Assembly (NCBI GenBank): GCA_005938025.2
Contig: VCCI02000001.1
Location: 2,108,001 to 2,172,000, forward strand
From: Inquilinus sp. KBS0705
GTDB taxonomy: Bacteria; Bacteroidota; Bacteroidia; Sphingobacteriales; Sphingobacteriaceae
Direction: 5' to 3'
DNA: 64,000 nucleotides
Below the pieces are notes generated by a model. That model was not told the origin of the DNA. It made no database searches and saw only the letters and a program-made list of their open reading frames with translations. Both the position numbers and the translations under genes were made by a program. Below, piece by piece: positions 30,951 to 54,852 of this stretch (position 1 is the first letter of the stretch; each line of letters starts with the position of its first letter).

Positions 30951-30983
30951 TACATTTGTATATACTTTATGCCAATCGGCATA
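30951..30983 (+). promoter_or_regulatory. Promoter and operator of the terminase genes
   Basis: TACATTTG (30951-30958) fits the -7 consensus TAnnTTTG exactly. Nine bases downstream, at the expected transcription start, is the inverted repeat TATGCC-AATC-GGCATA (30968-30983). The same TATGCC-N4-GGCATA element occurs before the tape-measure gene and before the protease gene. The terminase ATG is 22 bases further on. Binding by a repressor is inferred. Confidence 0.7.
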
Positions 30984-31005
30984 TTATACATAAACTAACC
31001 ATTTT

Positions 31006-31428
31006 ATGAAACACTACTTAACAGCAAGGGATTGCACAGCCCTTATTGATGCCTATTTTGTGCGCATTAAAGGCAAATACTATAATCTTAAAGGCAAAAA
31101 AGTTTACACTATAACACCCGAACCGCCAACCTTTACCGGCCTGGCCGCGGCACTTGGCTTTAATAGCCTCGCCGATTTTGAAGAATACCTAATTAAAGGC
31201 GCAAACGCCGACATTGTGAAACGGGCTAAGTTAAAAGTGGAGATCGAATACGAAAAACGCCTGCACCAGCCATCGGCCACTGCCGCAATTTTTGCCTTAA
31301 AAACCATGGGCTGGAAAGAGAAGGCTGCAGATACCCCTGAACAATTAACAGACAACCCACAAATAGAGATAGTGATATCGGGCCCCCACCCTGCCGCTAC
31401 CGAAAAGGATGTACTGATAGATGAATAA
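31006..31428 (+). CDS. Phage terminase small subunit
   Basis: A 140-residue protein with an N-terminal helix-turn-helix-like part (TFTGLAAALGFNSLADFEEYLIKG) and a later segment SATAAIFALKTMGWKEKA, a hallmark of terminase small subunits in Bacteroidota prophages. It would recognise the packaging site and stimulate the large subunit, which starts 31 bases downstream. It is the first gene after the promoter/operator at 30951, so it opens the late cluster. Confidence 0.85.
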   Translation: MKHYLTARDCTALIDAYFVRIKGKYYNLKGKKVYTITPEPPTFTGLAAALGFNSLADFEEYLIKGANADIVKRAKLKVEIEYEKRLHQPSATAAIFALKTMGWKEKAADTPEQLTDNPQIEIVISGPHPAATEKDVLIDE

Positions 31429-31459
31429 GCACGCTATTGCCCATTAAATTACTACCAAT

Positions 31460-32689
31460 ATGTCTACCTTATTTTACAAACAAACAGCCGCCCTGTTTAA
31501 ATACAATTATGATGCAAGCGCGCAGGTTGTTGTTAACCAGGGTGGTACCAGCTCAGGTAAAACATACGCCATACAGCAGGTATTGTTTTGCCTGGCCTAC
31601 GAGACCCCCAAACAGGTTATTACCGTTGTTGGGCAGGATATACCTAACCTTAAAAGCGGTGTACTGCGCGATGCTAAAAGCATACTGGCCGAATCGCCTT
31701 CACTGCAACGCGCCATCAAAAAATTTAACAGTACCGATAGGGTATTTGAATTTTGGAACGGCAGCATTATAGAGTACAAGAGCTATGCCGATGCGCAGGA
31801 TGCCAAATCGGGCAAGCGCGATCACCTGTTTATAAACGAAGCCAACGGCATTAAATGGGGCGTGTACCACGAATTGGCCCTGCGCACCCGTAAGCGTATT
31901 TTTATTGATTATAACCCTAACAGCAGCTTTTGGGTACATAACAAGCTGATAGGGAATGATGGCGTACAGCTTTTTATATCGGACCATAGGCACAACCCCT
32001 TTATTACCGACGAGCTACGCCAAAAGATAGAAGCACTTAAATACGAAGATATAGAATTATGGAAGGTTTATGCCCGCGGGCTTACGGGCAAAATAACCGG
32101 CCTTGTATTTAAAAACTGGTACGTGTGCGATGCCATACCACCCGATGCCAAATTATTGGCTGCAGGGCTTGATTTTGGCTTTACTAACGACGAAACCGGA
32201 TGCCTGCTGGTTTATAAGCAAAACGGCGAGCTATGGGTTGATGAAGTGCTGTATAAAACAGGCCTAACCAATACCGATATATCAAAAAAGCTTTTAAAGG
32301 CAGGCATAAGCCAAAGTACCGAAATTATTGCCGATAGCGCCGAACCAAAATCGATAGAGGAGCTTAAGCGATTGGGCTGGTACATAACCGGCGCAAAAAA
32401 AGGTGCCGATAGTATTAACAACTCTATAGATATTTTAAAACGATACCGCATTAACGTAACCCGTGGCAGTGTTAACCTGCGTAAAGAATTGGACAAGTAT
32501 AAATGGAAAACCGACGCAACCGGTAAAAGCCTTAACACGCCCATAGATACCTGCAACCACCTGATAGACCCCCTGCGTTATGTAGCACTGGGCAAACTAA
32601 AAATAAAGGCCGGTAAAGGCATCAAAAGCAGGCTGCCCGCCCCCCCGCCCCCTGAAGGGGGAGTTTTTGAAGAACTAATTTCTTATTAA
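31460..32689 (+). CDS. Phage terminase large subunit
   Basis: Packaging motor of the Terminase_3 (PBSX-like) type, 409 residues. ATPase: Walker A GGTSSGKT (28-35) and Walker B region DHLFINEAN (121-129). Nuclease: Asp238 in AGLDFGFTND, Asp292 in IIADSAEP and Asp363/370 in DTCNHLIDPLRY. All look intact. The last 17 or so residues (PPPPEGGVFEELISY and neighbours) are encoded by a host-type hairpin repeat that has replaced the natural C-terminus. The next gene starts 58 bases after the stop. Confidence 0.93.
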   Translation: MSTLFYKQTAALFKYNYDASAQVVVNQGGTSSGKTYAIQQVLFCLAYETPKQVITVVGQDIPNLKSGVLRDAKSILAESPSLQRAIKKFNSTDRVFEFWNGSIIEYKSYADAQDAKSGKRDHLFINEANGIKWGVYHELALRTRKRIFIDYNPNSSFWVHNKLIGNDGVQLFISDHRHNPFITDELRQKIEALKYEDIELWKVYARGLTGKITGLVFKNWYVCDAIPPDAKLLAAGLDFGFTNDETGCLLVYKQNGELWVDEVLYKTGLTNTDISKKLLKAGISQSTEIIADSAEPKSIEELKRLGWYITGAKKGADSINNSIDILKRYRINVTRGSVNLRKELDKYKWKTDATGKSLNTPIDTCNHLIDPLRYVALGKLKIKAGKGIKSRLPAPPPPEGGVFEELISY

Positions 32690-32735
32690 TTGATATAAAA
32701 AACCATTCCCGTGGATAACTCCCCCTTCAGGGGGC
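32647..32735. repeat. Hairpin repeat overlapping the terminase 3' end
   Basis: Arms GCCCCCTGAAGGGGGAGTT (32647-32665) and its exact reverse complement (32717-32735). The left arm is inside the terminase reading frame; the right arm is in the gap. Related sequence recurs at 33578-33670. Confidence 0.85.
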
Positions 32736-32747
32736 AGGGGGCAGCAT

Positions 32748-33586
32748 ATGATAGAAAAAACACTTAAAACCATTGATGATAAATTGCCTGTGCGCATACC
32801 ATCGGCCTTGCACGAGGTTACGCTGGGGCAAATGATGGCCCTGCAGGATAGTGCGTTGCTTACCGACCTGGATGCTATAAGCATACTATCGGGCATACCA
32901 CTTACCGATCTGCAAAACGTGCGTGATGCAAACGATTTCGCGGTATTTGCCGATGCGGTGCTGGGCTTATCGCAGCAGATAAAATATTTGTACAATAGCG
33001 ATACCATCCCAAAAAAGATAACGCTGCGTATAGATGGCAAGCCGGTAACAGTAAGCGTTATAAAAAACTTAGCAGTAGAGCCCGCGGGTGCCTTTATGGC
33101 CGCTAAAGACATTATAGCCGACGAGATAGCCGAACACATTAAACAAACCGGCGAAGACAACTGGCAGAAGCATTTTAACCCATCGCTTAAGGCTTGCTGC
33201 AAGGTATTGGGCTATTATTTTTATTGCCGCGCCACAGGCAACCGATACGACGAATATGCCGCCGCCGCTTTTACCGAAACCATTAAAACACTTGGGGTAA
33301 CGGAGGCACTGCCCATAGCCAAACATTTTTTTATGAACTATCCCGCCTTATCGAAACCGAGAACAAGCTGCTGGCATCGGCTGCTACAGCTCTGGAAAAG
33401 CGGGCGGGCATACAAGCTTTCGAAAAGTTTAAATACATCAACACCATTAACGCCTTAGCCGGCGGCGATGTAACCAAATGGGCCGCCGTACTTGCACTAC
33501 CCTACGAGCGCGTACTCACCAAGCTACTGCTCAACAAAACCGAAGCGGAATATCAGCGGAAATATAGCGAGGTGGTAGCCCCCTAA
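32748..33586 (+). CDS. Putative tail assembly chaperone with -1 programmed frameshift
   Basis: The zero frame gives 236 residues (stop at 33458), but its last 41 residues look non-coding. At T7 (33326-33332), read CAT TTT TTT ATG, slipping back one base gives TAT GAA CTA and a further 84 codons of good coding quality (ELSRLIETENKLLASAATAL through YQRKYSEVVAP) to TAA at 33584-33586, for a product of about 279 residues. A U-UUU-UUU site is a classic slippery heptamer, and tail chaperones of long-tailed phages commonly use it. The N-terminal part contains DAISILSGIPLTDLQNV. A plain frameshift mutation is the alternative. Confidence 0.7.
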
Positions 33587-33670
33587 CCCCCCAAAGGGGA
33601 ACTTAATATTTAACATAACATCCCTGTAACTGATAACCTTAATTGCTCCCCCTTCAGGGGGTTGGGGGGC
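33578..33670. repeat. Inverted pair of C-rich repeats between tail genes
   Basis: GCCCCCTAACCCCCCAAAGGGG (split by a T/C change) at 33578-33602 and an inverted relative at 33645-33670 (CTCCCCCTTCAGGGGGTTGG). Same family as the repeat at 32647. The left arm begins inside the -1 frame of the tail chaperone. Confidence 0.75.
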
Positions 33671-33682
33671 CAAAACAACACC

Positions 33683-34126
33683 ATGCGTAACCAAATAAAC
33701 GCCATTGCGGATAGCCTGAGCGCCTCGCCATCCTTTTTATACGGCACCGAAAATGAATTGAACACCCTGGCAGATGATGCCGCCTTTCCCTGTGTAATGC
33801 TTTACCCTTTGCAGCCCATAGTGGTATCGCCGCAGGTAAATGGCTCGGTAAATAACGTATTTAGCCTGTACCTGGAGTTTTTGTACAAAACCGAATTTGG
33901 CCAATACACCGCCGAAAACGAAACCTATGTGCAGCAGGCCCTGCAAATGGCCAACGAGTTTATGGTAAAGGCGGCCAAATACCGCGACGGCGATGGCCGT
34001 TACTTCCGCGTTAAGGCAGGCGAAAAGGCCAAATGTGTGCCAGTTTACAACAAGTTTGATGTAAACACCACCGGTATTGGCCTCACCATCACCCTAACCA
34101 CCATGTATTCCGATCTGATCAGCTAA
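33683..34126 (+). CDS. Phage virion-associated protein, 147 residues
   Basis: Start taken at ATG 33683 (MRNQINAIADSLSASPSFLYG); an in-frame TTG at 33662 lies inside a repeat. The protein has alternating helices and strands (FSLYLEFLYKTEFGQYTAENETYV) and ends GLTITLTTMYSDLIS. Size and position between the chaperone and the large tail protein suggest a tail-completion or neck protein, but I recognise no named family. Confidence 0.65.
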   Translation: MRNQINAIADSLSASPSFLYGTENELNTLADDAAFPCVMLYPLQPIVVSPQVNGSVNNVFSLYLEFLYKTEFGQYTAENETYVQQALQMANEFMVKAAKYRDGDGRYFRVKAGEKAKCVPVYNKFDVNTTGIGLTITLTTMYSDLIS

Positions 34127-34152: not shown

Positions 34153-36210
34153 ATGGCATTAATCCCCAGAATAAACATCAAATACCTGTCTACAACCGGC
34201 ACCGGCTTTTTTGGCATTGTTAGCATACAAATTTACGACAGCAATACCGGCCAGTTTGCCAATGGCAACGGCATAGCGGTTACCTATCAGCAAACCATTA
34301 ATTCGTACATCGATAGCTATACGGTATACATATCGGGCGAGAGTTTGAGTATCTACAACGGCAAACTGGACGACAGCGACCCCTTAAACCCTTATTACAC
34401 CGATTTTAAAATAACCGGCTTTAACACCAGCCCCCCACCTGATACCAACCCCGAGCCCGCTGCACCCAATTGCGACCTGGCTATACAAAAGGTGACCATT
34501 AACCAGGCCGAATCGGCACCGGGCGCAAATAATGCGCGGATAACCGTACAGGCTACATCAAGCAACGGCCCCATCACTTATAGTTTGGATGATGATAACT
34601 ACCAATCGTCGGCCACATTTACCGGCCTTAGCGCGGGTTTTATAACCGTATACGCCAAAGATGGCGACGGCTGCAAAACACAAACGTACGTTACGGTACC
34701 GGTGGTAAAAAACTTGTTGCTTAGCGGTCCTTCGGTAACCCTGCACGGCAACACCTCGCGCTGGAACGCGGCGTTTAACCCGGTGATTTTTACCTATCAG
34801 CGGAAAGATTTTAGCATAAGCGCCGCAGCTTTAGATAGCGTTACCCAAAAAGTGCGTTTAACTGTAAATACCAATGTTAGCACGGTAGTAAGCGGCGATA
34901 TGGTATACGTAGAAACTAATAAATATACCGGCACCTACAAAGTTTTGGGCAATAACGGATCCACAGGGCTTATTATTGATGCAGCTTATACCGGTACGGC
35001 TACGGGTTTTATCAACATTAACCGCCTTAGACCATATTACAGTGTGGCTACAAAAATCACCTTTACCGATAAAATAATAGGCATACAAAGCAGCATTACG
35101 GCCACCAACCGCCCCGATGGCAAAGGCATTACCCGGGCAGATATCTCAAACTTTTTGCAAAGCCTTTTACGCGCTGCCGATGCCAGCGATTATACCCAGC
35201 CCTACTATAACGATAGTAACCTGTGCGCCGGTTATACAATAGCCTACGCCGAGCAATGGGACGAGGGCGGCGAAACGCAAACATCGGGCTTTGTAAACAT
35301 ACCCGACCCTTACTACGTAGTTTATGCCGCCCGACAATTAGGGCAGGCCAACGGCGGTAATTTGCTGGAGTATGTGCCCTTTTTAACTACAGTAACCGGC
35401 ACCCCTAAAGCCAAATGGCTAAGCGACTTTACCGAACCGGCCTACAGCAACGGCTACCCTTTTGATATCGGCTTTATTTACAGCGATGAACTGGACGGCA
35501 ACAACGTATACTGCGAAATTGTACCGCTTGATATTAACCGCAAGCCCCTGGCCCTGCCCGCCGGCGACAGCCATTATTTAAACAACAGTGGATCATGGTT
35601 ATTAAGCGAGGATGGCAGCAAGCTGGTATTGGCGCGCAACACCATACAAAACCTGCCCATCTCCGGCAGCGCGGGCCTAAACCGCATGCTGATAGATACA
35701 AGCTTTGGCGATGAGGTATATTTTATCAACATCACCCTTAAATATAACGATGGTGGCACTGTACGCGCTATCACCCAAACCCAAACCATACGGGTAGACG
35801 ATGCCATTGACGACCAGTCGGTTTACTTGCGGTGGGTGGGTTTAACAGGAAGTTGGAACTACTATCGCTTTGTTTTTAACCAGGAGGTTAGCCTCGATGT
35901 CCAAAACGCTACCATCATTAAAAGCTACGTACTGGATTGGGAGAACCAGGAAGGCATTGAAGAGGTAATCAGCAAAACGGCGGGGCAAAAAATGAAGGTG
36001 ATAGCCGAAGACCTCTCCGTAGCCGATATTAAGGGGCTGCAGTCTATCAAGTACTCGCCCAAGGTGCAAATAATGGTGAACAAAAACCCGGTAAAGTGGC
36101 AAACCATCGTCATTAATACAGCCACCTACAGCGAGTACGAAACCCGCAACGGCCGGGCACCTTTTAGTGTAACGTTTAATTTACCGGCTATAAATGTGCA
36201 GGGGCAGTAG
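34153..36210 (+). CDS. Large phage tail protein with SprB-like Ig domain
   Basis: A 685-residue beta-rich protein. The N-terminal 85 residues (IPRINIKYLSTTGTG) form a small domain, then a proline-rich hinge (SPPPDTNPEPAAPN). Residues about 108-185 carry an SprB-type Ig-like repeat (GPITYSLDDDNYQSSATFTGLSAG), a motif better known from Bacteroidota adhesins. The C-terminal half (AIDDQSVYLRWVGLTGSWNYYRFVF) resembles structural proteins of Bacteroidota prophages. Likely a tail-associated protein; exact role unknown. No signal peptide. Confidence 0.65.
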   Translation: MALIPRINIKYLSTTGTGFFGIVSIQIYDSNTGQFANGNGIAVTYQQTINSYIDSYTVYISGESLSIYNGKLDDSDPLNPYYTDFKITGFNTSPPPDTNPEPAAPNCDLAIQKVTINQAESAPGANNARITVQATSSNGPITYSLDDDNYQSSATFTGLSAGFITVYAKDGDGCKTQTYVTVPVVKNLLLSGPSVTLHGNTSRWNAAFNPVIFTYQRKDFSISAAALDSVTQKVRLTVNTNVSTVVSGDMVYVETNKYTGTYKVLGNNGSTGLIIDAAYTGTATGFININRLRPYYSVATKITFTDKIIGIQSSITATNRPDGKGITRADISNFLQSLLRAADASDYTQPYYNDSNLCAGYTIAYAEQWDEGGETQTSGFVNIPDPYYVVYAARQLGQANGGNLLEYVPFLTTVTGTPKAKWLSDFTEPAYSNGYPFDIGFIYSDELDGNNVYCEIVPLDINRKPLALPAGDSHYLNNSGSWLLSEDGSKLVLARNTIQNLPISGSAGLNRMLIDTSFGDEVYFINITLKYNDGGTVRAITQTQTIRVDDAIDDQSVYLRWVGLTGSWNYYRFVFNQEVSLDVQNATIIKSYVLDWENQEGIEEVISKTAGQKMKVIAEDLSVADIKGLQSIKYSPKVQIMVNKNPVKWQTIVINTATYSEYETRNGRAPFSVTFNLPAINVQGQ

Positions 36211-36224: not shown

Positions 36225-36641
36225 TTACTTAAATCTATTGTAATGACGATCTTCCACAAAACGTTGGCCCTCGAACGGCACATCCCAATGTAATATCATT
36301 TCAGCATCAGATATTTTAGCAATGGTAAAAGTATCCCTTTCCATGTAAGCGTTATCAATAAGCCTTTCAAGCATTAGCTTATTATTGACTATTTTATAAT
36401 TAAATGGAATTCGCTGAGAATACTTACCGCTCCCATCACTATTAAAAGTTAAATAAATATATGCTGGCTCGGAAAAAACAAATGTAGAATCATATGTAGT
36501 GACACCATTCTTAACTAACTGTCTCCTTGTATCACCAGGACTCCAATTGCCCACTATTTTTTTTGGATAACTGTCCTCCTTTTTACAGGCAGCAAAACCA
36601 AAAGTTATTAAGCAGATGAATATTAGGTATTTGTATTTCAT
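36225..36641 (-). CDS. Lipocalin-like lipoprotein (accessory gene, copy 1)
   Basis: A 138-residue lipoprotein with lipobox FGFAAC (Cys19) followed by KKEDSYPKKIVGNW, the entry of a lipocalin-like barrel. It is a clear paralogue of the next gene: the lipobox-to-KKI region is nearly identical at DNA level. It lies on the opposite strand to the phage genes on either side and is AT-richer than them, so it is a cargo gene inserted between tail genes. A role in surface modification or superinfection exclusion is speculative. Confidence 0.8.
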   Translation of the reverse strand: MKYKYLIFICLITFGFAACKKEDSYPKKIVGNWSPGDTRRQLVKNGVTTYDSTFVFSEPAYIYLTFNSDGSGKYSQRIPFNYKIVNNKLMLERLIDNAYMERDTFTIAKISDAEMILHWDVPFEGQRFVEDRHYNRFK

Positions 36642-36668
36642 GTAAAAAGGTTAACTGGTTCTAAAGGT

Positions 36669-37112
36669 TTATTTTTTCCAGGTAACGTCTACCACCCAAT
36701 GACGCTTAGGATTAATATAATCTTCACCATGACTTAAAGTCATTTCCGCGCTGCTTAATTTTAATATAATATAAGTATCTTCATAAGGTGTCCCTGATTC
36801 AGTGGTATGTAACATAAGGTTTAAGTTATTGCCTTCAATTTTGTAAGTAAAGTCATTTTTTGCAGCACCAATCCCATCCGCAGGATGCTTTTCGCCGGTT
36901 CCGTCAGCATTAAATAGAAAGTAATTTCCAGCACTGGCTCCGGCAATTACAACTGTATCACTAATCTTAACTCCGGTAGTGTCAAATACCTGGCGTCTAA
37001 TTTCTTTTATACGCCATTTGCCAATTATTTTTTTTGGATAACTGTCCTCCTTTTTACAGGCAGCAAAGCCTAAAGCTAACAAGCAAATAAACAGCAAGTA
37101 CTTGCTTTTCAT
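36669..37112 (-). CDS. Lipocalin-like lipoprotein (accessory gene, copy 2)
   Basis: A 147-residue lipoprotein (lipobox LGFAAC, then KKEDSYPKKIIGKWRIKEIRRQ). It aligns with copy 1 throughout, including the C-terminal SSAEMTLS and SDAEMILH segments, which indicates a tandem duplication. The two are 27 bases apart and transcribed together, against the direction of the tail genes. Its promoter should lie in the 72 bases before the hub gene. Confidence 0.8.
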   Translation of the reverse strand: MKSKYLLFICLLALGFAACKKEDSYPKKIIGKWRIKEIRRQVFDTTGVKISDTVVIAGASAGNYFLFNADGTGEKHPADGIGAAKNDFTYKIEGNNLNLMLHTTESGTPYEDTYIILKLSSAEMTLSHGEDYINPKRHWVVDVTWKK

Positions 37113-37184: not shown

Positions 37185-39200
37185 ATGAACACCCTCCAAC
37201 TATACCTAAACGACCAACTGGTTGATACCGCCGACGATAGCCCTATTGCCCTTACCTTCCAGATCAACAACCTGGCCGAGGTAAAAAATCAGCAGGGCAA
37301 TACCAGCAACCAGTTTAGGCTGCCTTTAACACAGCGCAACCGGCAAATACTGGGTTTCCCGGATGATGTGGCCTTTACCACCAACCTGCCCTATACTAAC
37401 TACCAGGCCAAAATTGTGCAGGACGGTTTAGAAATAGTGCCTTATGGCATAGCCGTTTTAAACGAGGTGGAGCAGGATAGCGCGGCCATTACCGTACTAA
37501 GCGGCAATGTAGATTTTTTTGATGCCATTAGCGGCAGTATTTACAATATGGGCGATAAAACAACGCCCTATGGAGCTAAACAACCCTTTTTGCCCTACCA
37601 GCATACCTGGAATGTAGATAATGTAGTTAAATCGCAAACACATACCGAAGGCTGGATATGGCCCGTGGTTGATTATGGCAACCTGGTATATAATTTTGCC
37701 GGCGATTGCGAGGTAGATGTGCGCCACCTGCGCCCCGGCTTTTTTATTAAAACCGCTATCGACCTGATGCTGGCTACCAATGGCTACAAAGGCACCGGTT
37801 GGTTACTAAGCAACCCTTTATACCCCCTGCTAATAGCCCAGTTTAGCAATAGCAGTTTTGAGCATGGCAGCGATTACCAAAACCAGCCTAACCAAAACGG
37901 TCTGCAAACGGCTATTGCGCTCAACTATGCAGTAAGCCATATCCCAAAGGAAGACAACATTCGCGTTATACCCTTCCCGGCGGTAAATGCCGACCCGGCC
38001 GGCCAGTTTTCGGGCACGGTGTTTACGGCAAAGCAAATAAGCACAGTTGATGTAAAGGTAACCATACCTAAAATACGTTTCCAGGGGCGGGTAAATAGTA
38101 AGGACCCGTCGGCACTACGTATTTTTATTAAAGTAAATACTACCGGTAGCGAAGTAACCCTAACCGAATCCCGATTTGACCTTGCCGACCCTTATGAACG
38201 GCTGAGTGGCACGGGCGGTGGTATTGTGGGCTACAAAGACACTCAGAATACCGTTATATCGGCCACGGTTGACCTATCCATTGGCGACCAGCTAAGCGTT
38301 TGGTATGAATTTACCGGCGACCGCCCCGCCTACTTTACCATTTACGCGGGGGCTACTTTAGAGGTTACCCCCACTAAACAGGGCGTGCTTTACGGCCAGG
38401 AGGTACAGTGCGAGCGCATTTTCCCCGATATCAGTCAGAAGGATTTGCTGAAGGATGTGTTGCAGCGCTTTGGCATTATTTGCCAAACCGATACCAATAC
38501 CCGCACCATTAACTTCGCGTCGTTTCGCGATATTGTGAATAATATACCGGTAGCCAACAACTGGACAAAAAAATGCATCGATCAGGGTAAGACCGTCAGC
38601 TTTCAGCTGGGTAATTACGCACAGGTAAATTACCTAAAGTATAAAGAGGATGATGCCGTGCTGCCCAAAGGCTTTGCCGATGCGCAGATAAACGTAGCCG
38701 ATAAAACCCTGCCCGCCACTGCCGACCTACTGGAGAGCCAGTTTGCCCCCACCCTAAATCGCCCTTATATTGGCGGCAGCATTGCCCAAATAAAAATGGC
38801 CGACGAGAACGGCGATTTTAACACCGGCGTATCGCCCCGTATACTGATAGACCAAAAGCTAAAACTGCCCGAGTTTAAAACCATTAAATTTACCGACGGC
38901 AATGCCGCTAATGATATACCGGTAAACGATTGGATATCTGTACCCTATTTTGCCAAAACCGGCGGCCAGTATAGCCTGCTATGGGATGAGCTGCGCAAAC
39001 AATACTACCCCGAACTGGAGAAGATATTACAGCAAACCAAAAAAGTGGTGCGCTACTTTATGCTAAGCCCCCGCGATATTTTAGAGCTGGACCTGCTGAT
39101 ACCCATTTACCTGCAGCAGGATGGCGCCTACTACTACATTAATAAAATAGACAGCTGGCGTAAGGGCCAGCCGGTAAAGGTAGAGCTGATGAGGTTGTAG
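37185..39200 (+). CDS. Phage tail hub or tip protein
   Basis: A 671-residue protein with the start MNTLQLYLNDQLVDTADD and the segment GNTSNQFRLPLTQRNRQILGF, a pattern seen at the N-terminus of hub/tip proteins in Bacteroidota phages. The middle (about residues 265-400) is beta-sandwich-like, and the end returns to a mixed fold with YYYINKIDSWRKGQPVKVELMRL, where the protein may bind the tape measure. It precedes the tape measure here, reversed from lambda-like order. No lysozyme-type domain is visible. Confidence 0.65.
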   Translation: MNTLQLYLNDQLVDTADDSPIALTFQINNLAEVKNQQGNTSNQFRLPLTQRNRQILGFPDDVAFTTNLPYTNYQAKIVQDGLEIVPYGIAVLNEVEQDSAAITVLSGNVDFFDAISGSIYNMGDKTTPYGAKQPFLPYQHTWNVDNVVKSQTHTEGWIWPVVDYGNLVYNFAGDCEVDVRHLRPGFFIKTAIDLMLATNGYKGTGWLLSNPLYPLLIAQFSNSSFEHGSDYQNQPNQNGLQTAIALNYAVSHIPKEDNIRVIPFPAVNADPAGQFSGTVFTAKQISTVDVKVTIPKIRFQGRVNSKDPSALRIFIKVNTTGSEVTLTESRFDLADPYERLSGTGGGIVGYKDTQNTVISATVDLSIGDQLSVWYEFTGDRPAYFTIYAGATLEVTPTKQGVLYGQEVQCERIFPDISQKDLLKDVLQRFGIICQTDTNTRTINFASFRDIVNNIPVANNWTKKCIDQGKTVSFQLGNYAQVNYLKYKEDDAVLPKGFADAQINVADKTLPATADLLESQFAPTLNRPYIGGSIAQIKMADENGDFNTGVSPRILIDQKLKLPEFKTIKFTDGNAANDIPVNDWISVPYFAKTGGQYSLLWDELRKQYYPELEKILQQTKKVVRYFMLSPRDILELDLLIPIYLQQDGAYYYINKIDSWRKGQPVKVELMRL

Positions 39201-39283: not shown

Positions 39284-39338
39284 AACCACTTGCTTTTAAC
39301 AAACCAGTTTTTTATATTTACCAATAATATTAGCAAAC
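39284..39338 (+). promoter_or_regulatory. 55-base repeat acting as promoter, copy 1
   Basis: Identical over 55 bases to 40203-40257. It holds TTG (39290-39292) and TATATTTA (39313-39320) separated by 20 bases, a good match to the Bacteroidota promoter form. The next ATG is at 39356. Confidence 0.7.
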
Positions 39339-39355
39339 CTAAATTAATCGTTATT

Positions 39356-39976: not shown

Positions 39977-40047
39977 ATAAAATAGTAGTAAAATATACAT
40001 TCAAATTAATCATGCATATTCCAATTAACATATAAAACATAATAACT

Positions 40048-40155
40048 ACTGCAGAACAAACAAACGCCGGTATTACCGGCGGCAACATTAAAAAAGCACA
40101 GGAGTATAAAACCGCGCTCAACGAATTACAAAAAGCAGTTATGGATAAGTATTAA
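40048..40155 (+). pseudogene. Truncated duplicate of the tape-measure N-terminus
   Basis: Reads AEQTNAGITGGNIKKAQEYK and then TALNELQKAVMDKY, stop. It aligns with residues 2-35 of the tape measure (ADQTNNPITDDNIKKAKDYK, DALDNLK). The ATG is replaced by ACT. The 25 bases upstream (ACATATAAAACATAATAA) also match those before the tape-measure ATG, with a degraded version of the TATGCC palindrome. It is the leftover of a tandem duplication. Confidence 0.85.
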
Positions 40156-46701: not shown

Positions 46702-47286
46702 ATGTCAATTTACAACAAAATAAATGCAGGGTTCGCCCTTGGAACAGGCGCGCCAATTACAGCCGGTATAGAAGATGCGATATACATTTTTAACCAGGAT
46801 GATATCACCTTTACCTACGACACTACAAATCCGCTGATAATTAAAGGCCTAACGGCCGTCAGCGCAGCTAAAATTTACAAATTCGAGGGTACCAACAACA
46901 GCTTTAACACCATGAGCAAGCTGGCCAAAACACAGGTTGGCCCACGTTACACCGAAGAAATTGATTTTAACATAGCAGGTATATCAACCGACGTAAAGGC
47001 ACAATTAATGGCAATGGGCTATGGCCGTGTATGCGCAATAGCAGTAAACAACCATAAACAAGGCGATTCGGCTATTGAGTTATTCGGAGCAGTAAACGGC
47101 CTTATTGTATCTGAAGCTGAGCGTAGCGCAGCCGAAGAAACAGTAGACGGTGGTTACAAAATAAAATTAACCAACCCCGATAAGCTAAAAGAGCCTTACC
47201 CACCACGTGCTGTTTTAATACCACCAACAAGCGGTACCGCAACTTATGCCAGCACTATTGCTGCAATTGAAGCACTGGTAGATTAA
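46702..47286 (+). CDS. Probable major tail (tube) protein
   Basis: A 194-residue beta-rich protein with no signal peptide. The segment KIYKFEGTNNSFNTMSKLA, followed by GPRYTEEIDFNIAGISTDVKAQLM and GYGRVCAIAVNN, has the look of tail-tube proteins in Bacteroidota siphophages. It lies between the capsid and a small connector gene, separated on both sides by hairpin repeats. A head-decoration protein is the main alternative. Confidence 0.65.
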   Translation: MSIYNKINAGFALGTGAPITAGIEDAIYIFNQDDITFTYDTTNPLIIKGLTAVSAAKIYKFEGTNNSFNTMSKLAKTQVGPRYTEEIDFNIAGISTDVKAQLMAMGYGRVCAIAVNNHKQGDSAIELFGAVNGLIVSEAERSAAEETVDGGYKIKLTNPDKLKEPYPPRAVLIPPTSGTATYASTIAAIEALVD

Positions 47287-47641: not shown

Positions 47642-48919
47642 ATGAAAACCTACTTACCACAAATTGAACCGCGTATACTGGTAAGGCCCAACCAAACTTT
47701 CGGCATATTAAATTACGATTCGGATAATGCCTATCCGCAGCGTATGCTGGAACTGGTAGCACAATCGCCCACCGCCAAAGATTGCTGGAACAAGCGGGCT
47801 AAATTTATTGCCGGTAACGGATTCGAAGATGGCGGGTTGGGCAAAACAGCTATCAATAACAAGGGCCTTACCCTGGCTAAATTATTAAAAGTAATAGCAA
47901 CGGATAAAGCATTGTTTAGCGGCTTTGGTATCCATAAAAATTACAACGCTAACTTTAAAATAGCATCGGTAAACTATGTAAAGTTCGAGGACATCCGCAT
48001 GGGTGATACCGATAACGCAGATACTGCCTGCAAGTTTGCCATTTACAATGATTGGGGCCGCAAAACCTGGAAAAATATCATGCGCAGCAAAATCACCTTT
48101 CTGGAGCCCTACAATCCTGATGAAGAAATAATTAGGCAGCAGGTAAAAGCCGTTGGCGGATGGGAAAAATACAAAGGGCAATTACTTTACTTTAACCCCG
48201 AAGTTGATGATTACCCCTTGATAGAAGCTGATTCGGTTTGGGAAGATTTTGAGACCGAGGCCGGTATCAAAATATTTAACAACCGCGAAGTAACCACCGG
48301 CTTTTTGCCATCAACCATGTTGTTTATGCAGGCGCGCCGCGAGGAAGCTGATAATAGTAGCGATTATGGCGATACGGCGAACAGGCCTTCGCAATTAGAG
48401 AAAGACCTGGGCAGTTTCCAGGGCACCAAAAGCGCTCAAAAAATAATTGTGATTGAATATGAAGACGAAAGTGCCAAACCCGAATTTCAGCCGTATGCAA
48501 TTCAAAACAACGACAAGCTTTTTGAAACAACAGAAAGATCAGTAGAGGCCAGAATTATAAAAGGGTTTTCGGTACCTAAGGAATTGGTAAACGCCGAAAA
48601 ATCATCGGGATTAAGCAATGGCGGCGAAAAAGCAGAAGCCATAAGGCAATTTAACGACAACACCGCACCCGACAGGTTGGAGTTAGCTGAAACATTAAAA
48701 GAACTGTTTAGTCACTTTTATACCAACCTTAACCCAACTGATAACTGGAACATTATCCCTATACCAGCCGATGTATCCGATGATTTGGCTGGTATAAAAG
48801 CCGGACCGGCAATTAACCAATTGTTACAGTCTACCATACCTGCCCAAAGCAAAATTGCTACACTAATGTATGCTTATGGCTTTAAACAGGAAGAGGCTAC
48901 GGCAATGTGCGCTATTTAA
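47642..48919 (+). CDS. Phage portal protein
   Basis: A 425-residue portal. The N-terminal part has the wing fold start (YDSDNAYPQRMLELVAQSPTAKDCWNKRAKFIAGNGF), and the central helix region RSVEARIIKGFSVPKELVNAEKSSGLSNGGEKAEAIRQF matches the crown/stem of Bacteroidota portals. It forms the ring through which the terminase pumps DNA. Unusually it lies downstream of the capsid and tail-tube genes and 15 kb from the terminase. Confidence 0.85.
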   Translation: MKTYLPQIEPRILVRPNQTFGILNYDSDNAYPQRMLELVAQSPTAKDCWNKRAKFIAGNGFEDGGLGKTAINNKGLTLAKLLKVIATDKALFSGFGIHKNYNANFKIASVNYVKFEDIRMGDTDNADTACKFAIYNDWGRKTWKNIMRSKITFLEPYNPDEEIIRQQVKAVGGWEKYKGQLLYFNPEVDDYPLIEADSVWEDFETEAGIKIFNNREVTTGFLPSTMLFMQARREEADNSSDYGDTANRPSQLEKDLGSFQGTKSAQKIIVIEYEDESAKPEFQPYAIQNNDKLFETTERSVEARIIKGFSVPKELVNAEKSSGLSNGGEKAEAIRQFNDNTAPDRLELAETLKELFSHFYTNLNPTDNWNIIPIPADVSDDLAGIKAGPAINQLLQSTIPAQSKIATLMYAYGFKQEEATAMCAI

Positions 48920-48956: not shown

Positions 48957-49019
48957 ATGAACAAAACTTTAAATATTCCGCTGCCAGCCGGCGGAAGTTG
49001 GGGGGCTTCGATATGCTAA
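48957..49019 (+). CDS. Possible 20-codon leader ORF overlapping the next start
   Basis: ATG at 48957 reads [20 protein letters not shown] and ends TAA at 49017-49019, four bases past the start ATG of the next gene (49013). The arrangement is typical of translational coupling, but the peptide could simply be a translated intergenic repeat. Confidence 0.3.
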   Translation: MNKTLNIPLPAGGSWGASIC

Positions 49020-49627
49020 ACCTGATTATACCTGCCACACTGCAACGATACGAGGATATCGCGGCAAACATAAAACCCGGGCGCATAAAAGTATTTATAC
49101 AAAAAGCGCAGGAATTAGATATTAAACCATTTTTAGGCTATGCCTTGTATTACGACCTTATTAAATACCTGGATACAGATGCCACCTTAAAAGATGATGC
49201 TCCACAACACTACAAAGATTTATTAAATGGCACTGAGTATTTAGATGAGCACGGACATATTGTTTTATACCAAGGTTTACAACCCGTACTGGCCTACTTC
49301 ACCTTCGCACGCTTTATTGAAGCGGATGCTGTACACTATACCGCAACCGGCCCGGTTATCAAACGTTACGATAATGCCAATGCAATTGCCATAAAAGATA
49401 TTGTAAAATTGGTACAACAACAACGCAGTACAGCAAATGCCTATGCTAACGAAACCGAAAGGTTTTTAGCGGATCATCAGGAAAACTTTCCGGCATGGCA
49501 TTACAATCAAAAAAACAAAAGTAGCAGGCAAGCCGGCCCACGCATAAGGGGTATCGATCGGTCTGACTTTAACTATACCGGCTATAACCGCTGCAACTAT
49601 CAATTACTAACTGAATTTTTAAACTAA
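49013..49627 (+). CDS. Probable head-tail connector (DUF6712-like)
   Basis: A 204-residue mostly helical protein from ATG 49013 ([24 protein letters not shown]). The segments [19 protein letters not shown] and [21 protein letters not shown] are characteristic of a Bacteroidota phage connector family (DUF6712 as I recall). It lies immediately after the portal, as expected for an adaptor, and its stop shares a base with the next ATG. Earlier in-frame TTG at 48998 is less likely. Confidence 0.7.
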
Positions 49628-50664
49628 TGGCTACTGACAAAAAAATAAGTGAGCTGCCCATAGCTACAAGCATAGCGTCTACCGATATATCTGTTTTGGT
49701 TAAAAGTGGCGTAGATTATCAATTTTCAGTTAATCTGCTACTGCAATATCTTGCTGCCAATTTATCTACAGGTTCAAGCATCACATTTGGCACTGTTTTG
49801 CCACAAAACAGTTCGGGCAAAAACGGAGATGTATTTTTAAAAACTAATTCCGGCCAGTTCGCTCAAAAAATATCGGGTGCGTGGGCCGTTGTTTTCACTC
49901 TCCCCGCAATTGATGACCCAGCCGATGGAACAACCTTATATGGGCCCGGCACACCTACAACAGCAACCGGCAAAAACGGCGATACCTACATTGATACCGA
50001 AGCGGGTATTTTTTACAAAAAAGCAAGCGGTACATGGTCTCAGGAATTTTCAATGCAAACCGGTCCGCAAGGCCCAAAGGGTGCAAAAGGAGATACAGGT
50101 AGTGCAGGCATAGCCGGAAGGACCATTTTGAATGGAGCAGGCAATCCGCCAAACACTACCGGTGCCAACGGCGATTTCTATCTTAATACTACTGCTTATC
50201 GGTTCTTCGGCCCAAAAACAGCGGGCGCATGGGGCACGGGAATACAAGTTGTAGGCCCGCAAGGCGAACAAGGCGAAACCGGTTTAACCGGCCCCACAGG
50301 TGTCACTGGCGCAACCGGAGCTACAGGGCCAACCGGCCCAACAGGCAGCACCGGCCCGGGAGTAGCTACAGGCGGGACAGCCGGCCAGGTGCTAAAAAAA
50401 GCATCAAATAGTAATTTTGATACTGAGTGGGCTGAAATACCTGACACATTTGATTTGTTGGCTGCTATTCATAGTGCCCCAATACATGAAAATGAAGAAG
50501 AAGCAATAATAGCTAACATTGATACATATACCATGTATAGAACATCAACAGGTGAATTAAGGTATAAATTACCAACGCCTCCCTTGCCACCAACGGCTGG
50601 GGTGGTTGATAATAACGAAGATACATTCACTTTTATTGGTGGGGAATATACATTTTTACCTTAA
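49627..50664 (+). CDS. Collagen-like phage tail fibre protein
   Basis: A 345-residue fibre. The N-terminus ([24 protein letters not shown]) is the usual attachment domain of Bacteroidota phage fibres. Two collagen-like Gly-X-Y runs follow at about residues 147-160 and 209-245 ([19 protein letters not shown]), with a beta domain between. The C-terminus YTFIGG-like region is the receptor end. Trimeric fold is expected. Next gene starts five bases later and encodes a second fibre-type protein. Confidence 0.85.
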
Positions 50665-50669: not shown

Positions 50670-52319
50670 ATGGCAATTAGAATTTTAACAGATCACGAAT
50701 ATCAAATCAACGATGGTTTATGGATAGCATGTAATACTGGAAACACTTTAAATAATAGCGATGGATCTTATACTATTACCCAAGGGTTAAACGTGGATAT
50801 TCCTATAGATCAATTAAAGGTACGTGTAAAAGCAATTGGAGATACCCCGGCAAGTGCTGCACTTAAAAATGCTGTAGCCTTTAACGCCCCATTAGCTCCC
50901 AAAAAAATACAAGCATTTTTTATAGGTGATAGTTTGACTGCGGGAATTGGTACAACCGGTGTTGGTACAAGCGCAAGCGGCAACTATTTTGGCGTTAATT
51001 CTTATCCAGTTAAAACTATATCAAAATTAACAGGCTTGGATATTGATGGCTATAATATGGCATACCCCGGCAGGAGGGCTGTCGATTTTAACCCAAACTA
51101 TTTAATTCCAACTATTGGTCGTTTTAACAAAGAGCTTTATACTGATATCTACTGTATCGTCTTTTTTGGCGCTAATGATCTTTGCACAATGGACTCAACA
51201 GCTTTTGTTACAGCAATTACTGAAACATGCGGTACCTTAAAAGATGCAGGCGCTAAAGTTATACTTGTACCTGTGCTTTCTAGAAAAGACACATATGCAG
51301 CATCCATTAGCTATAATAATATTTCCAGACGAAATACTTTTAACGCGTGGCTAGCATCTAATTATGCTACTATTTGTGATGCTTATGTTGACCTTTCGGA
51401 GCATCCAGAAATATTTGCAGACAATGCCCCGGATAATACTACTTATTTTAAAGACCCTGACTCGGACGGTTACAATAAGGTCCATTTAACAGATGCAGGA
51501 GCTGATATATTAGCCATTGCTGTAGCTGATACTATAACTGCTTTGGCGGGAACTGGTTCTATACCCATAATCCCTGTTGATTATGCATCTAATTTTATAG
51601 ATGCAGCCGGAATTACAGACGCCACACAAATATCAGCTATACAAACATTAGTATCTGATTTAATAGAAGCGAATATTTGGCATAAATTACCTGCTATTTA
51701 TCCATTTGTTGGTGCCACCGAAACATCCAATAAATTAAATCTTAGAGATCCAAGGGATTTAGACGTTGCATATCGTTTGGATTTTATCGGAAGCCCATTT
51801 TATAGTCTAAATGGCGTCACATGGCATAGTGGTTCATATGCTGATACCCATTTTGGAGGCATTGGTGCCGATGTTTTTAATTACTTAAATTGTAGCTTAC
51901 ATTATTATTCTGGAGCGGTAACATCAGCGGGTATTGACATAGGGGTTTACAGCACCAGTCCTTTTTGGTTAGGTATAAAACTTGGAGGTAATAGTTACAC
52001 ATCAATTGGTGATAGTACAGGAACTGGAGTTTCTGAATCATATTCTGATTTGGGATTCTTTACAACTAGTCGGGTGAACTATAATAAACGAAGTTTATAT
52101 AAAAATGGCACTTTAGTCCGAGATACTAATGTAAACATAAGTGGTGCCTCTGGAAATAATATCTGGATTGGTTGTCTTAACAATGGCGATAGCGTGCAAT
52201 ATGCCTCAGAGAGGCTATGTTCTTATGCAGCAATAGGTTATGGACTAACAGCGACAGAGGAAGCCGCTCATTATGCAGCAATTCAAGCTTTTCAAACAAC
52301 TTTAGGTAGAGCAATCTAA
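50670..52319 (+). CDS. SGNH-hydrolase tail fibre or tailspike
   Basis: A 549-residue protein. An N-terminal domain (1-75) is followed by an SGNH esterase: Ser88 in FFIGDSLTAG, Asn169 in FFGANDL and His272 in NKVHLTDAG. The C-terminal part (about 310-549) is a beta-sandwich with lectin/LamG-like style ending ATEEAAHYAAIQAFQTTLG. It probably deacetylates surface sugar during adsorption. It is more AT-rich than the upstream late genes. Its stop overlaps by four bases a convergent acyltransferase gene. Confidence 0.85.
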   Translation: MAIRILTDHEYQINDGLWIACNTGNTLNNSDGSYTITQGLNVDIPIDQLKVRVKAIGDTPASAALKNAVAFNAPLAPKKIQAFFIGDSLTAGIGTTGVGTSASGNYFGVNSYPVKTISKLTGLDIDGYNMAYPGRRAVDFNPNYLIPTIGRFNKELYTDIYCIVFFGANDLCTMDSTAFVTAITETCGTLKDAGAKVILVPVLSRKDTYAASISYNNISRRNTFNAWLASNYATICDAYVDLSEHPEIFADNAPDNTTYFKDPDSDGYNKVHLTDAGADILAIAVADTITALAGTGSIPIIPVDYASNFIDAAGITDATQISAIQTLVSDLIEANIWHKLPAIYPFVGATETSNKLNLRDPRDLDVAYRLDFIGSPFYSLNGVTWHSGSYADTHFGGIGADVFNYLNCSLHYYSGAVTSAGIDIGVYSTSPFWLGIKLGGNSYTSIGDSTGTGVSESYSDLGFFTTSRVNYNKRSLYKNGTLVRDTNVNISGASGNNIWIGCLNNGDSVQYASERLCSYAAIGYGLTATEEAAHYAAIQAFQTTLGRAI

Positions 52320-53416
52320 CAAATTTTCTCAGAGGTGTGATTAATGATTTTTTTGCCAAATTTTTGCAAGGGCTCTTCAATAAAGTAATTTAGAATACAC
52401 GAAAAAAATAAACTTATTGATAATACTATTAAATAATTTATTATTAAATTAATAATTGCAAATGGTTCATTTACTTTCTCGAAAAAGTTGATAAGCCTGA
52501 ATTTATTCAAAAAATAAATTGCTGCCCAATGTGTTAAATAAAGTGTATAACTAACCTTCCCTATGTACAAAAATGCTTGATTGAATAATATCTTAGGATG
52601 ATATTTCTGTAAAGCAATTACTAATAATATAAAGGATAGCCCGAAGAGAAATAAATTATATATTAACAATTGCTGCTCAAGAGAAAATCCCACAAGCAAA
52701 AAAATCGCCCCCAATAAAAGGGATTTTAAATTAATTTCATACGTTTCACTATATATGAGAAAATATAAGATAATACCTAATGCAAAAATGGGCAATTGAT
52801 TTGGGAAATATAAAAAGAGGTACTCGTTCCATAAACGATTTTCGGGTATTAAAATTATATGTTGGAAAATTAAGAGTAAAATAAACCTAATTGCCAACGT
52901 GACTAATAAAAAATTATATGCTTGTTGGATATTTTTGATTCTATAATATAAAAAAGGGACTAAGCAGTAAAATGCAACTTCGATTGCTACCGACCACCCG
53001 CCAGGCACCAAGCTTGCTATCCAATATGGACTAAAGCCATGGGTAAAAGTGAAGTTTGATATTATATTCCCTAATGAAATACTGGGATCATTCCCCAACC
53101 AATAGCGAGGTCCAAAGCCATCCTGCCATAAATAATAAACTATTGCTATATAATACAAAGGTGCTATCCTAAAAAATCTCCTAATAAAATAGTTCCTTAC
53201 AGTCTTTTTTTCATTTACCCTATTGCTAAAAGAAAGAAATAACGTAAAAGCACTTAGTAAATAAAATAATTGTACACCACGTGCTCCGTTATTTATTATG
53301 GCAATTATGTAAGGGTGTATCTTTTCAATATTAATTGATTGCAGACTCACATGAACAATTAGTACACCTAGAATAGCTATGGCCCGTAGCACGGTTATAT
53401 AATCCAACTTCTTCAC
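52316..53416 (-). CDS. Acyltransferase_3 family O-acyltransferase
   Basis: A 366-residue inner-membrane protein with about ten helices. The family motif LDYITVLRAIAILGVLIVHV contains the catalytic His, and RRFFRIAPLYYIAIVYYL is the conserved RFxRxxP block. Such enzymes O-acetylate O-antigen or other surface sugars. It is strongly AT-rich and faces the other way from the phage genes, so it is a late acquisition. It is convergent with and overlaps the esterase fibre by four bases. Confidence 0.92.
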   Translation of the reverse strand: MKKLDYITVLRAIAILGVLIVHVSLQSINIEKIHPYIIAIINNGARGVQLFYLLSAFTLFLSFSNRVNEKKTVRNYFIRRFFRIAPLYYIAIVYYLWQDGFGPRYWLGNDPSISLGNIISNFTFTHGFSPYWIASLVPGGWSVAIEVAFYCLVPFLYYRIKNIQQAYNFLLVTLAIRFILLLIFQHIILIPENRLWNEYLFLYFPNQLPIFALGIILYFLIYSETYEINLKSLLLGAIFLLVGFSLEQQLLIYNLFLFGLSFILLVIALQKYHPKILFNQAFLYIGKVSYTLYLTHWAAIYFLNKFRLINFFEKVNEPFAIINLIINYLIVLSISLFFSCILNYFIEEPLQKFGKKIINHTSEKIC

Positions 53417-53441
53417 TGTTTACAAAGTAAACAATTTCACA

Positions 53442-53681
53442 ATGAAAAAAAAATTAAGCTTAGGCAAGCGCCTGTTAAGCGCTACACCTGCATTTTTTAA
53501 ACGGGCGCAATTATTTGGTGTCAGCCTGGCTGGGTTGGGTACTTCTCTTACCCAAGTAATAGGTATACCTGTAAAACTTTGTACTATTTTAATAACTGCA
53601 GGTACAACAATAACAGTAATCAGTCAATTCGCAGTTGAACAATATGAACCCATCAACCATGAAAAAAATGAAGTTAAGTGA
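53442..53681 (+). CDS. Small membrane protein, possible holin
   Basis: A 79-residue protein with a basic N-terminus (MKKKLSLGKRLL) and two weak hydrophobic segments (VSLAGLGTSLTQVIGIPV and KLCTILITAGTTITVISQF). It overlaps the lysozyme start and heads the lysis cassette, which is where a holin is expected. Sequence similarity to a named holin family is not apparent. Confidence 0.55.
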   Translation: MKKKLSLGKRLLSATPAFFKRAQLFGVSLAGLGTSLTQVIGIPVKLCTILITAGTTITVISQFAVEQYEPINHEKNEVK

Positions 53682-54129
53682 TCACGGTATAGCGGTAATC
53701 AAAAACTTTGAAGGGTTGAGGCTAAACGCCTACCGCGACGTTGCCGGCATTTGGACCATCGGTTATGGGTCTACTAAGTACCACGATGACAAAGCCATTA
53801 AACCTGGCGATAAATTGACCGGCGAGGAACAAGCCGATGCCCTGTTTAAAAATACGTTAGGCAAATATGTTGATGCGGTTAATAACGGGGTTAAAGTTCC
53901 GCTTAATCAAAATCAATTTGATGCGCTGGTATCGTTCACCTACAATTTAGGCACGGGAGTAATGGCAACATCTACATTAGTTAAAATGCTTAACAAAGGC
54001 GATTATACCGCTGCCGCAGATCAATTCCTTTTATGGGATAAAATAACAGACCAACAAAATGGCAAAAAAATAATTTGCAAAACACTTTCTAAACGCCGCG
54101 AACAGGAGCGCGCATTATTTTTATCATGA
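53659..54129 (+). CDS. T4-type lysozyme (GH24 endolysin)
   Basis: A 156-residue muramidase from ATG 53659 (MKKMKLSDHGIAVIKNFEG); ATGs at 53644 and 53668 are alternatives. The catalytic triad is intact with T4-like spacing: Glu18 in NFEGLRL, Asp27 in YRDVAG and Thr33 in WTIGYGS. The C-terminal VSFTYNLGTGVMATSTLVKMLNKG segment is typical. No signal peptide, so export depends on the holin. The gene overlaps the holin-like gene upstream and the next gene downstream by four bases. Confidence 0.93.
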   Translation: MKKMKLSDHGIAVIKNFEGLRLNAYRDVAGIWTIGYGSTKYHDDKAIKPGDKLTGEEQADALFKNTLGKYVDAVNNGVKVPLNQNQFDALVSFTYNLGTGVMATSTLVKMLNKGDYTAAADQFLLWDKITDQQNGKKIICKTLSKRREQERALFLS

Positions 54130-54374
54130 CATCAATAGAACACAGGCAACTAAAAGGTATAACTATCAAAAATATTGTAGTAACTATTATTAGTACCGCC
54201 AGTATAGTAGTATCGGTAATGACGACCTATTTTGAATTGAAGGGCGCAATACGCGACGTTCAGGTAACCCAGGATGCCCAAAATAGGGTAAACGAAATCA
54301 GATTAAAGGTTTTGGAGGGCCAGGTAGCCTTATTACAGCGCGAAGTAGAAAACATTAAAACTAAAAAATATTAA
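54126..54374 (+). CDS. Small coiled-coil membrane protein of the lysis cassette
   Basis: An 82-residue protein with one membrane helix (IVVTIISTASIVVSVMTTY) and a C-terminal coiled coil (NEIRLKVLEGQVALLQREVENIK), the layout of an inner-membrane spanin or accessory holin. It overlaps the lysozyme stop by four bases. Role is inferred from topology and position. Confidence 0.6.
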   Translation: MTSIEHRQLKGITIKNIVVTIISTASIVVSVMTTYFELKGAIRDVQVTQDAQNRVNEIRLKVLEGQVALLQREVENIKTKKY

Positions 54375-54384
54375 CCATTCTATT

Positions 54385-54852
54385 ATGAGTTTAACATCAC
54401 TTATCTACAAAATATGGAACAGCATTCGGTTATTGTTTAATCACTTTCCTGCCGATCTTAAAAAAGCGGTACACATTGGCGTTGTTATAACAGAGAATAT
54501 TAAAACTATTGTCGAATCACCTTTTACTGATATGCTTACTTTAATAATACCGGGTGATATCGACGATAAAATAAAGCAAGTCTTACGCGCTGGTATCCCG
54601 CTCATATTAACCAATTTAAAATTAACGGACAAATGCAGTGATTTAAACGACCCACAGGAAATTACCAGATGCACTATTCGAATAATACAAAATTTAGATG
54701 GCGATATTAAAAGCGCGACTTTACATAACCTTTCTGTACTTATATCAAAACTGGCTGCCGACGGGCAATTAACGTGGAGCGACGGAGTATGTATCGTTGA
54801 ATGGTATTACCAAAATAACTTTAAGCACAATGCCAGGCTCATTGCAACTTAA
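54385..54852 (+). CDS. Hypothetical phage protein, 155 residues
   Basis: A mostly helical, soluble protein with a weakly hydrophobic start (LIYKIWNSIRLLFNHFP). Similar proteins often close the lysis region of Bacteroidota prophages. The C-terminus includes LAADGQLTWSDGVCIVEWYYQN. It lies ten bases after the coiled-coil gene. Function unknown; it may mark the right end of the phage cluster, because the next genes look like host genes. Confidence 0.6.
   Translation: MSLTSLIYKIWNSIRLLFNHFPADLKKAVHIGVVITENIKTIVESPFTDMLTLIIPGDIDDKIKQVLRAGIPLILTNLKLTDKCSDLNDPQEITRCTIRIIQNLDGDIKSATLHNLSVLISKLAADGQLTWSDGVCIVEWYYQNNFKHNARLIAT

Follow-up and report, generated by a model that had tools for sequence, protein, structure and literature searches.

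Analysis of a 64,000-nucleotide stretch of the genome of Inquilinus sp. KBS0705 (Sphingobacteriaceae; contig VCCI02000001.1, positions 2,108,001 to 2,172,000), hereafter the window, whose numbering is used for all coordinates, revealed a phage late gene cluster of ~24 kb (31006-54852). The late gene set is complete, comprising terminase small and large subunits (TerS, TerL), tail, tape measure, head protease, putative capsid, adaptor, portal, connector, fibres, and lysis. Taking gene content, chromosomal site, and inheritance together, we consider it probable that this cluster is an independently domesticated, vertically inherited particle locus of the gene transfer agent (GTA) type, which would package and transfer host DNA. 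An original prediction, made from the letters of the window, had already proposed a domesticated prophage or a GTA-like locus, and this is now supported by the same site in relatives, intact genes, the lack of an integrase, congruence with rpoB, and remnants in genomes that lost the cluster.

Six features of GTAs were listed by Kogay et al. 2022 (PMC9662315), three of which can be assessed genomically, and all three were found here. The proteins are caudoviricete-derived, with TerL, protease, portal, and lysozyme strongly matching phage families. The genome is fully endogenised: in 57 of the 61 genomes in which the portal gene and an S24-type repressor gene share a contig, the site is the same, with at most 35 kb between the two; complete clusters contain no integrase, and no replication gene was recognised. 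Inheritance is mostly vertical with the host, as seen from rpoB congruence, single copy number, and same-site remnants. The remaining features are packaging of mostly random host DNA, of which the SPP1-type terminase is suggestive, a head too small for the own genome, and delivery to cells (PMC9662315). On this genomic evidence the locus behaves like a GTA, with provisional membership.

Distribution and chromosomal site of the locus

The cluster was traced in 150 congeneric genomes of Mucilaginibacter, a genus of soil bacteria, and 60-kb loci from 18 congeners were combined with the window to a set of 19 loci. Of these 19, window counted, 16 contain the entire cluster with an essentially unchanged gene order; in G036 the tape-measure gene has moved. 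The portal gene was detected in 75 of the 150 genomes with 71-85% identity and without stop codons, being single-copy in its carriers except for one genome with a second partial match. All named genomes with the portal are Mucilaginibacter or unclassified Bacteroidetes metagenome-assembled genomes, a 31% Flavobacterium match being the one exception, and the capsid gene is present in 1 of 25 genera sampled in Sphingobacteriaceae. The same cluster at the same site, which the original prediction had sought among related Sphingobacteriaceae, is thus found in many congeners, while the range of the locus is one genus, Mucilaginibacter, and not the family generally. The best portal match in the phage database is ~30% identical, and the capsid has no match there. 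IMG/VR contains many copies of the locus; because these are 77-93% identical and some derive from isolate genomes, they are this locus filed as virus.

The right edge of the locus is conserved and consists of lysE, tRNA-Leu(gag), tRNA-Leu(cag), the host gene F22 (YCF48/BNR type), and tRNA-Lys. The last gene, lysE (54385-54852, + strand), ends 6-60 bp before tRNA-Leu(gag) in relatives, with ~6, 10, and 13 bp to the 3' end of this tRNA gene in three species. This spacing corresponds to the geometry of a tRNA-integrated prophage, and tRNA-Leu is the probable ancient attachment site of the locus. Within the window's own genome, ~14 kb of other genes lie between lysE and tRNA-Leu, the latter being located outside the window at 68713. 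There is no copy of the tRNA-Leu 3' end at the left edge, and the search for flanking direct repeats that had been suggested at the outset yielded none of at least 16 bp linking both edges.

None of the 11 tyrosine integrases of the genome, all of which were located, lies in the window, and none was found inside any of the 16 complete clusters. Likewise, Pfam and PHROG scans recognised no replication gene in the window cluster, the cargo of the relatives not having been scanned for such genes. Both absences had been predicted. The predicted lack of a phage repressor holds for the interval of the cluster itself, but an S24/CI-like repressor gene is located in the window just to its left (25770-26465). 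Integrases further to the right, which could have contradicted the prediction, occur in ~14 loci. Situated past F22 and tRNA-Lys and representing at least four mutually unrelated groups, they look like parts of tRNA-Lys islands, and the idea of a retained prophage integrase at the right edge was rejected on the same grounds.

The tRNA-Lys gene to the right of F22 is a hotspot of islands with unrelated tyrosine integrases (L447, L406, L071, L061, L075, L080, L416, L052, L064, L065, L054, L079). The island of the own genome has its integrase at 70957-72261 (window numbering extended) beside ATPase and methyltransferase-like genes, which look like defence.

Five of the 150 genomes carry a portal relative of 34-39% identity. 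In the deep Mucilaginibacter genomes G028, G058, G050, and G029 (L221-L226, L219-L220) this relative has the same gene order. No tRNA-Leu was found within the 40 kb fetched around these relatives; near that of G050 there are an S24 repressor gene and a palindrome resembling the operator. The relative is possibly a second domestication.

Vertical inheritance, selection, and loss

For 29 species, a head-gene tree was built from portal, adaptor, and connector and compared with rpoB. The trees have 10 of 26 splits in common, against a mean of 0.25 and a maximum of 2 with shuffled labels, and the Mantel correlation between head genes and rpoB (r 0.75) was equalled in 0 of 2000 permutations. Since the rpoB protein and rpoB DNA trees agree with each other on only 14 splits, 10 common splits approach the attainable maximum. 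Well-supported splits of the head-gene and rpoB trees conflict in four pairs, and some exchange of head genes between lineages may have occurred.

The sequence data indicate that selection on the cluster is purifying. The ratio of nonsynonymous to synonymous polymorphism (pN/pS) was 0.14-0.16 in the portal, adaptor, and capsid genes and reached 0.41 among the tail genes. The corresponding substitution ratio (dN/dS) of head genes was 0.02-0.11 between close pairs, only few pairs being close enough. Across the genus, synonymous sites are near-saturated while the frames stay open. The cluster is not a transient prophage.

Ten genomes lacking the portal were examined. Nine of them keep remnants next to the repressor gene: terS, lysE, and a portion of terL, joined in some cases by tail genes. 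In the remaining one (G122), a terS interrupted by a stop codon lies on the opposite side of the repressor gene, at a distance of ~10 kb. Because the portal-lacking genomes keep these remnants at the site, the ancestor of most of the genus had the locus, which was then lost repeatedly through internal deletions. TerS is found genus-wide in 127 of 150 genomes (106 of the 118 good ones); 52 genomes have terS without the portal, with stop codons in only three and 49 frames intact. Several remnants (G149, G042, G004, G124; L252, L236, L238, L254) are reduced to terS and lysE. That both end genes were retained independently points to a benefit of their own, which may lie in interfering with phages that infect the cell.

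Gene content and module order

Open reading frame (ORF) calls combined with Pfam and PHROG profile searches showed the ORFs of the late cluster to be intact, with a few cargo genes between them. The late genes occur once each and in the order that had been read from the window, TerS-TerL-tail-tape-protease-capsid-tube-portal-fibre-lysis. Profiles strongly support TerL, protease, portal, DUF6712, and lysozyme; for tail genes and capsid the support is moderate or positional, tape measure and hub matching weak or unknown PHROG structural families. The gene labels given initially hold by profile for terminases, protease, portal, connector, and lysozyme, while those of tail chaperone, capsid, and tail tube rest on position. 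All genes described below are on the + strand unless noted otherwise.

The cluster starts with terS (31006-31428; PF16677 E 3e-6, phrog_606 E 2e-9), followed by terL (31460-32689) with an SPP1-type nuclease (Terminase_3/3C, Terminase_3C E 2e-14; phrog_2; PDB 2wbn E 5e-10). Its Walker A motif GGTSSGKT and the residues E127, D238, D292, and D370 are near-invariant in 17 species, the catalytic residues thus being intact, and the nuclease match suggests an SPP1-like headful type of terminase. A conserved late protein (32748-33458; in order in 17/19 loci) occupies the position of a tail assembly chaperone, and a small conserved one (33662-34126) that of a tail completion protein. They are followed by a large tail or virion structural protein (34153-36210; phrog_26672 virion structural, E 2e-8), a tail hub or baseplate-like protein (37185-39200; phrog_33698 E 5e-22, phrog_19401 virion structural E 0.004), the tape measure protein (40910-43285; phrog_14295 E 9e-26, phrog_14476 virion structural E 1e-24), and the small conserved late protein s15 (43443-43676; 58-78% identity in relatives).

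The head module opens with a ClpP-type head maturation protease with a scaffold-like C-terminus (44080-45255; PF00574 E 9e-25, phrog_94 E 2e-59). The putative major capsid protein (45369-46577), assigned from its position between protease and portal, is the most conserved protein of the cluster with 83-92% identity among relatives. It matches phrog_11320, a PHROG family of unknown function, in 19 of 19 members, and a weak match to phrog_283 (major head protein) was obtained in two. Its inserted beta domain (45880-46170, residues ~172-268) is absent from most relatives; fold matches of this domain are to the FCCH-type domain of ubiquitin-E1, which is seen in other phage structural proteins. Downstream are a conserved head-tail adaptor or tail tube protein (46702-47286; phrog_21217), whose positional counterpart in phage BS-TP3 is annotated as head-tail adaptor, the portal protein (47642-48919; phrog_11226 E 2e-79), and the DUF6712 connector protein (48998-49627; PF20459 E 7e-37).

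A collagen-like tail fibre (49627-50664; phrog_5073 E 3e-13) precedes a species-variable fibre or GDSL-esterase protein (50670-52319; PF13472 E 6e-15), for which a homologue exists in just 1 of the 18 relatives; no other part of the locus varies as much as its fibre and esterase genes. The lysis module comprises a small membrane protein as holin candidate (53442-53681; 9/19 loci, no profile match), a phage lysozyme or endolysin (53635-54129; PF00959 E 2e-42, phrog_7 E 7e-60), the small protein lysC (54126-54374; 14/19 loci), and lysE.

Cargo genes are two duplicated lipoprotein genes on the - strand (36225-36641 and 36669-37112, together 36225-37112; 108-bp repeat 81% identical, patchy in relatives), a second duplicated pair (39290-39976 and 40209-40841, together 39290-40841; 76-bp leader also duplicated, variable in relatives), and an O-acyltransferase gene on the - strand (52316-53416; PF01757 E 1e-24, phrog_3333 O-acetyltransferase E 4e-43). 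The repeats are of two kinds, a tandem repeat of 141 bp (30570-30833) and short inverted ones. An ice-binding-like protein with InlB-type repeats is encoded in the right flank (61693-63969).

The position of the tail module ahead of the head module had been regarded as unusual, an assessment that did not stand. Elizabethkingia phage TCUEAP1 (MN732896) has the order TerS-TerL-...-tape measure-protease-capsid-...-portal-...-fibre-lysis, Cellulophaga phage phi46:1 (KC821611) has a circular permutation of it, and the order is also retained by divergent relatives, both in Mucilaginibacter and in other families. Tail-before-head order as a mark of domestication was consequently rejected; the comparison indicates that it belongs to the phage lineage and is older than domestication. 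The portals of the locus and of TCUEAP1 and phi46:1 are ~26-27% identical. Unlike the locus, both are free phages with replication genes, and phi46:1 has an integrase.

Regulatory elements

The S24-peptidase (LexA/CI-like) transcriptional repressor (25770-26465, - strand; PF00717 E 4e-8, phrog_4 transcriptional repressor E 3e-10), proposed as master repressor, lies 4.5 kb to the left of the late cluster. It is found in 134 of the 150 congeners, and elsewhere in the family with sporadic 45-54% matches in three genera. The S24 catalytic residues Ser140 and Lys178 are invariant in 15 species, as is Gly106 of a cleavage-like T-A-(S/T)-G motif, which is comparable to LexA/CI cleavage sites. A putative operator palindrome, TAAAGATATTTCTTTA (consensus TAMAGANNNNTCTKTA), at 26505-26520 overlaps the -7 box of the rightward promoter. 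The consensus palindrome is located upstream of the repressor gene in 17 of 17 loci (one with 1 mismatch) and also 19-100 bp upstream of terS in G049, G064, G145, G013, and, with 1 mismatch, G023, overlapping the -7 box at terS in G145 and G013. Exact matches are expected by chance at ~0 per 64 kb; genomes have 3-9 exact sites, the own genome 3 versus 0 for the reversed control. The palindrome is likely the operator of the S24 repressor. A match near xerC in several genomes lies inside the xerC coding sequence and was discarded as probable chance.

Divergent from the repressor gene is the small conserved gene L2 (26871-27272, + strand; 17/19 loci, without Pfam match), directly followed by a degenerate copy (TATGCCATATAGCATA; 27276-27291, + strand) of a directional 26-bp element, TATGCCAATYGGCATTtaaaaCATAA. 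This element heads the terS, tape-measure, and protease units, with 46 sites in 16 loci. In the window, the copies on the + strand are at the 5' end of the terS unit (30968-30991; TATGCC-N4-GGCATW-N5-CATAA), before the tape-measure gene (40880-40903), and at the head operon promoter (43890-43913). The exact palindrome of the element occurs four times in the whole 4.4-Mb own genome, three of them in the cluster. At terS and the protease gene it is situated directly 3' of a Bacteroidota-type -7 box in many loci, and among the variants of its stem are G-U-compatible changes as well as C-A mismatches. We interpret it as an operator or a leader RNA that coordinates the cluster.

Upstream of the head operon, a 61-bp promoter-like segment containing TGTGACAAAATAGTGTCAC is duplicated (43670-43730 and 43836-43896), its TGTCACC-like part being conserved in relatives.

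Alternative explanations

The main rival, which we consider unlikely, is a domesticated PBSX-type particle that acts as killer or decoy. Its capsid and tail would be produced under SOS-type control and might hold host DNA, its benefit being the killing of competitors by means of adaptable fibres rather than transfer. PBSX of Bacillus subtilis is, like the locus, fixed in the genome, being a defective prophage under a repressor with intact packaging and lysis genes; it differs in its contractile tail and phylum, and it kills rather than transfers. The variability of the fibre and esterase genes is what such a function would predict, an S24-type repressor and a lysis module are present, and a benefit of transfer is hypothetical. 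Against this, terL, portal, protease, and putative capsid are among the best conserved genes and the TerL catalytic residues are intact, a point that is not decisive, as PBSX-like elements fit it too. Tailocins have a tail module without capsid, portal, and terminase, whereas here portal, protease, and terminase are present and conserved.

A second rival is a normal lineage of temperate prophages infecting Mucilaginibacter, with every insertion at the same tRNA-Leu and with integrase and replication functions provided from elsewhere. It would account for the classic attachment site at the edge, the many copies filed as viruses in IMG/VR, and the integrases to the right in ~14 loci. We regard it as improbable: the head-gene tree follows the host, portal-lacking genomes show deletion remnants instead of clean empty sites, the right-hand integrases are past F22/tRNA-Lys and of diverse origin, Pfam and PHROG scans recognised no replication genes in the window cluster, and att repeats of at least 16 bp were not found. 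An active prophage would show an integrase and att repeats at its edges; complete clusters have no integrase, the edges share no repeat of that length, and the tRNA-Leu edge is only a relic. Slightly more improbable still is a dead prophage in slow decay without current function. It would agree with the portal loss in about half of the genus and with the deletions, frameshifts, or insertions in the decaying carriers G055, G147, G123, G025, G075, and G062; open frames genus-wide despite near-saturated synonymous sites, dN/dS well below 1, and regulatory palindromes conserved at near-zero chance expectation speak against it.

Several points weigh against a GTA-like locus. With the portal lost in about half of the genus, the locus is dispensable. 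The capsid fold is not confirmed, two AlphaFold models being poor (mean predicted local distance difference test scores of 44 and 51), and fold searches were uninformative, with matches mainly to the inserted beta domain. The own terS has no clear copy of the repressor operator in the window. By portal, the closest isolated relatives are at most ~30% identical, a distance at which lifestyle would not be inherited by analogy. Finally, particles, packaged DNA, and transfer are predictions, as would be a head too small for the ~24-kb locus.

Discussion

For the favoured GTA-like locus, the following course of events can be proposed. A siphovirus-type temperate phage would have entered the chromosome of an ancestor of most Mucilaginibacter at the tRNA-Leu(GAG) 3' end, lost its integrase and replication genes, and been domesticated into a vertically inherited particle producer. 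In a few cells the repressor would be relieved, probably by DNA damage or starvation, and the terS-terL, tail, head, and lysis units would be switched on together. The SPP1-like headful terminase would then fill heads mostly with host chromosome, and after cell lysis fibre-guided particles would carry host DNA to relatives, acting as a gene transfer agent.

Rhodobacter capsulatus GTA and its relatives (alphaproteobacterial type I) share with the locus Caudoviricete-derived head-tail genes, a fixed site, vertical inheritance, loss in some lineages, the lack of an integrase and replication module, as well as tail fibres and lysis genes. Unlike them, the locus belongs to a different phylum, has a different gene set as far as tested, places the tail module before the head module, and consists of a single main locus equipped with an S24 repressor of its own and a cluster-specific element. 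Bartonella GTA and Brachyspira VSH-1 are likewise independently domesticated phage loci, and theirs make host-DNA particles; they belong to other phyla and have other gene orders, Bartonella GTA using run-off replication, a counterpart of which was not found in the locus, no search aimed at it having been made.

The 2022 classification recognised three independent GTA lineages, in alphaproteobacteria and spirochaetes (PMC9662315). Our search of open-licence papers found no description of a GTA in Bacteroidota, and a 2026 gut survey reported lateral transduction, not GTAs, in Bacteroides. We give about even chances to the locus being a fourth independently evolved functional GTA lineage, the first in Bacteroidota, which would be genus-specific, with its own S24 repressor and 26-bp leader element, and whose terS and last gene may persist beyond the particle by serving the host on their own, e.g., by disturbing the packaging of infecting phages. 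Many proviral sequences were reported in strains E4BP6 and X4EP1 (PMC12074574), both of which carry the locus, and copies of it are probably counted as proviruses in genome papers. If true, the GTA-like nature of the locus would also explain many database entries, its copies being filed as viruses in IMG/VR.

GTAs with a known genetic basis are few. If confirmed, this would be the first such system found described for Bacteroidota, and species with intact, partial, and deleted loci provide a ready comparison set. A genus-wide, culturable Bacteroidota example, maintained as the species diverged, would, if true, make it possible to test independently why such particles are selected for.

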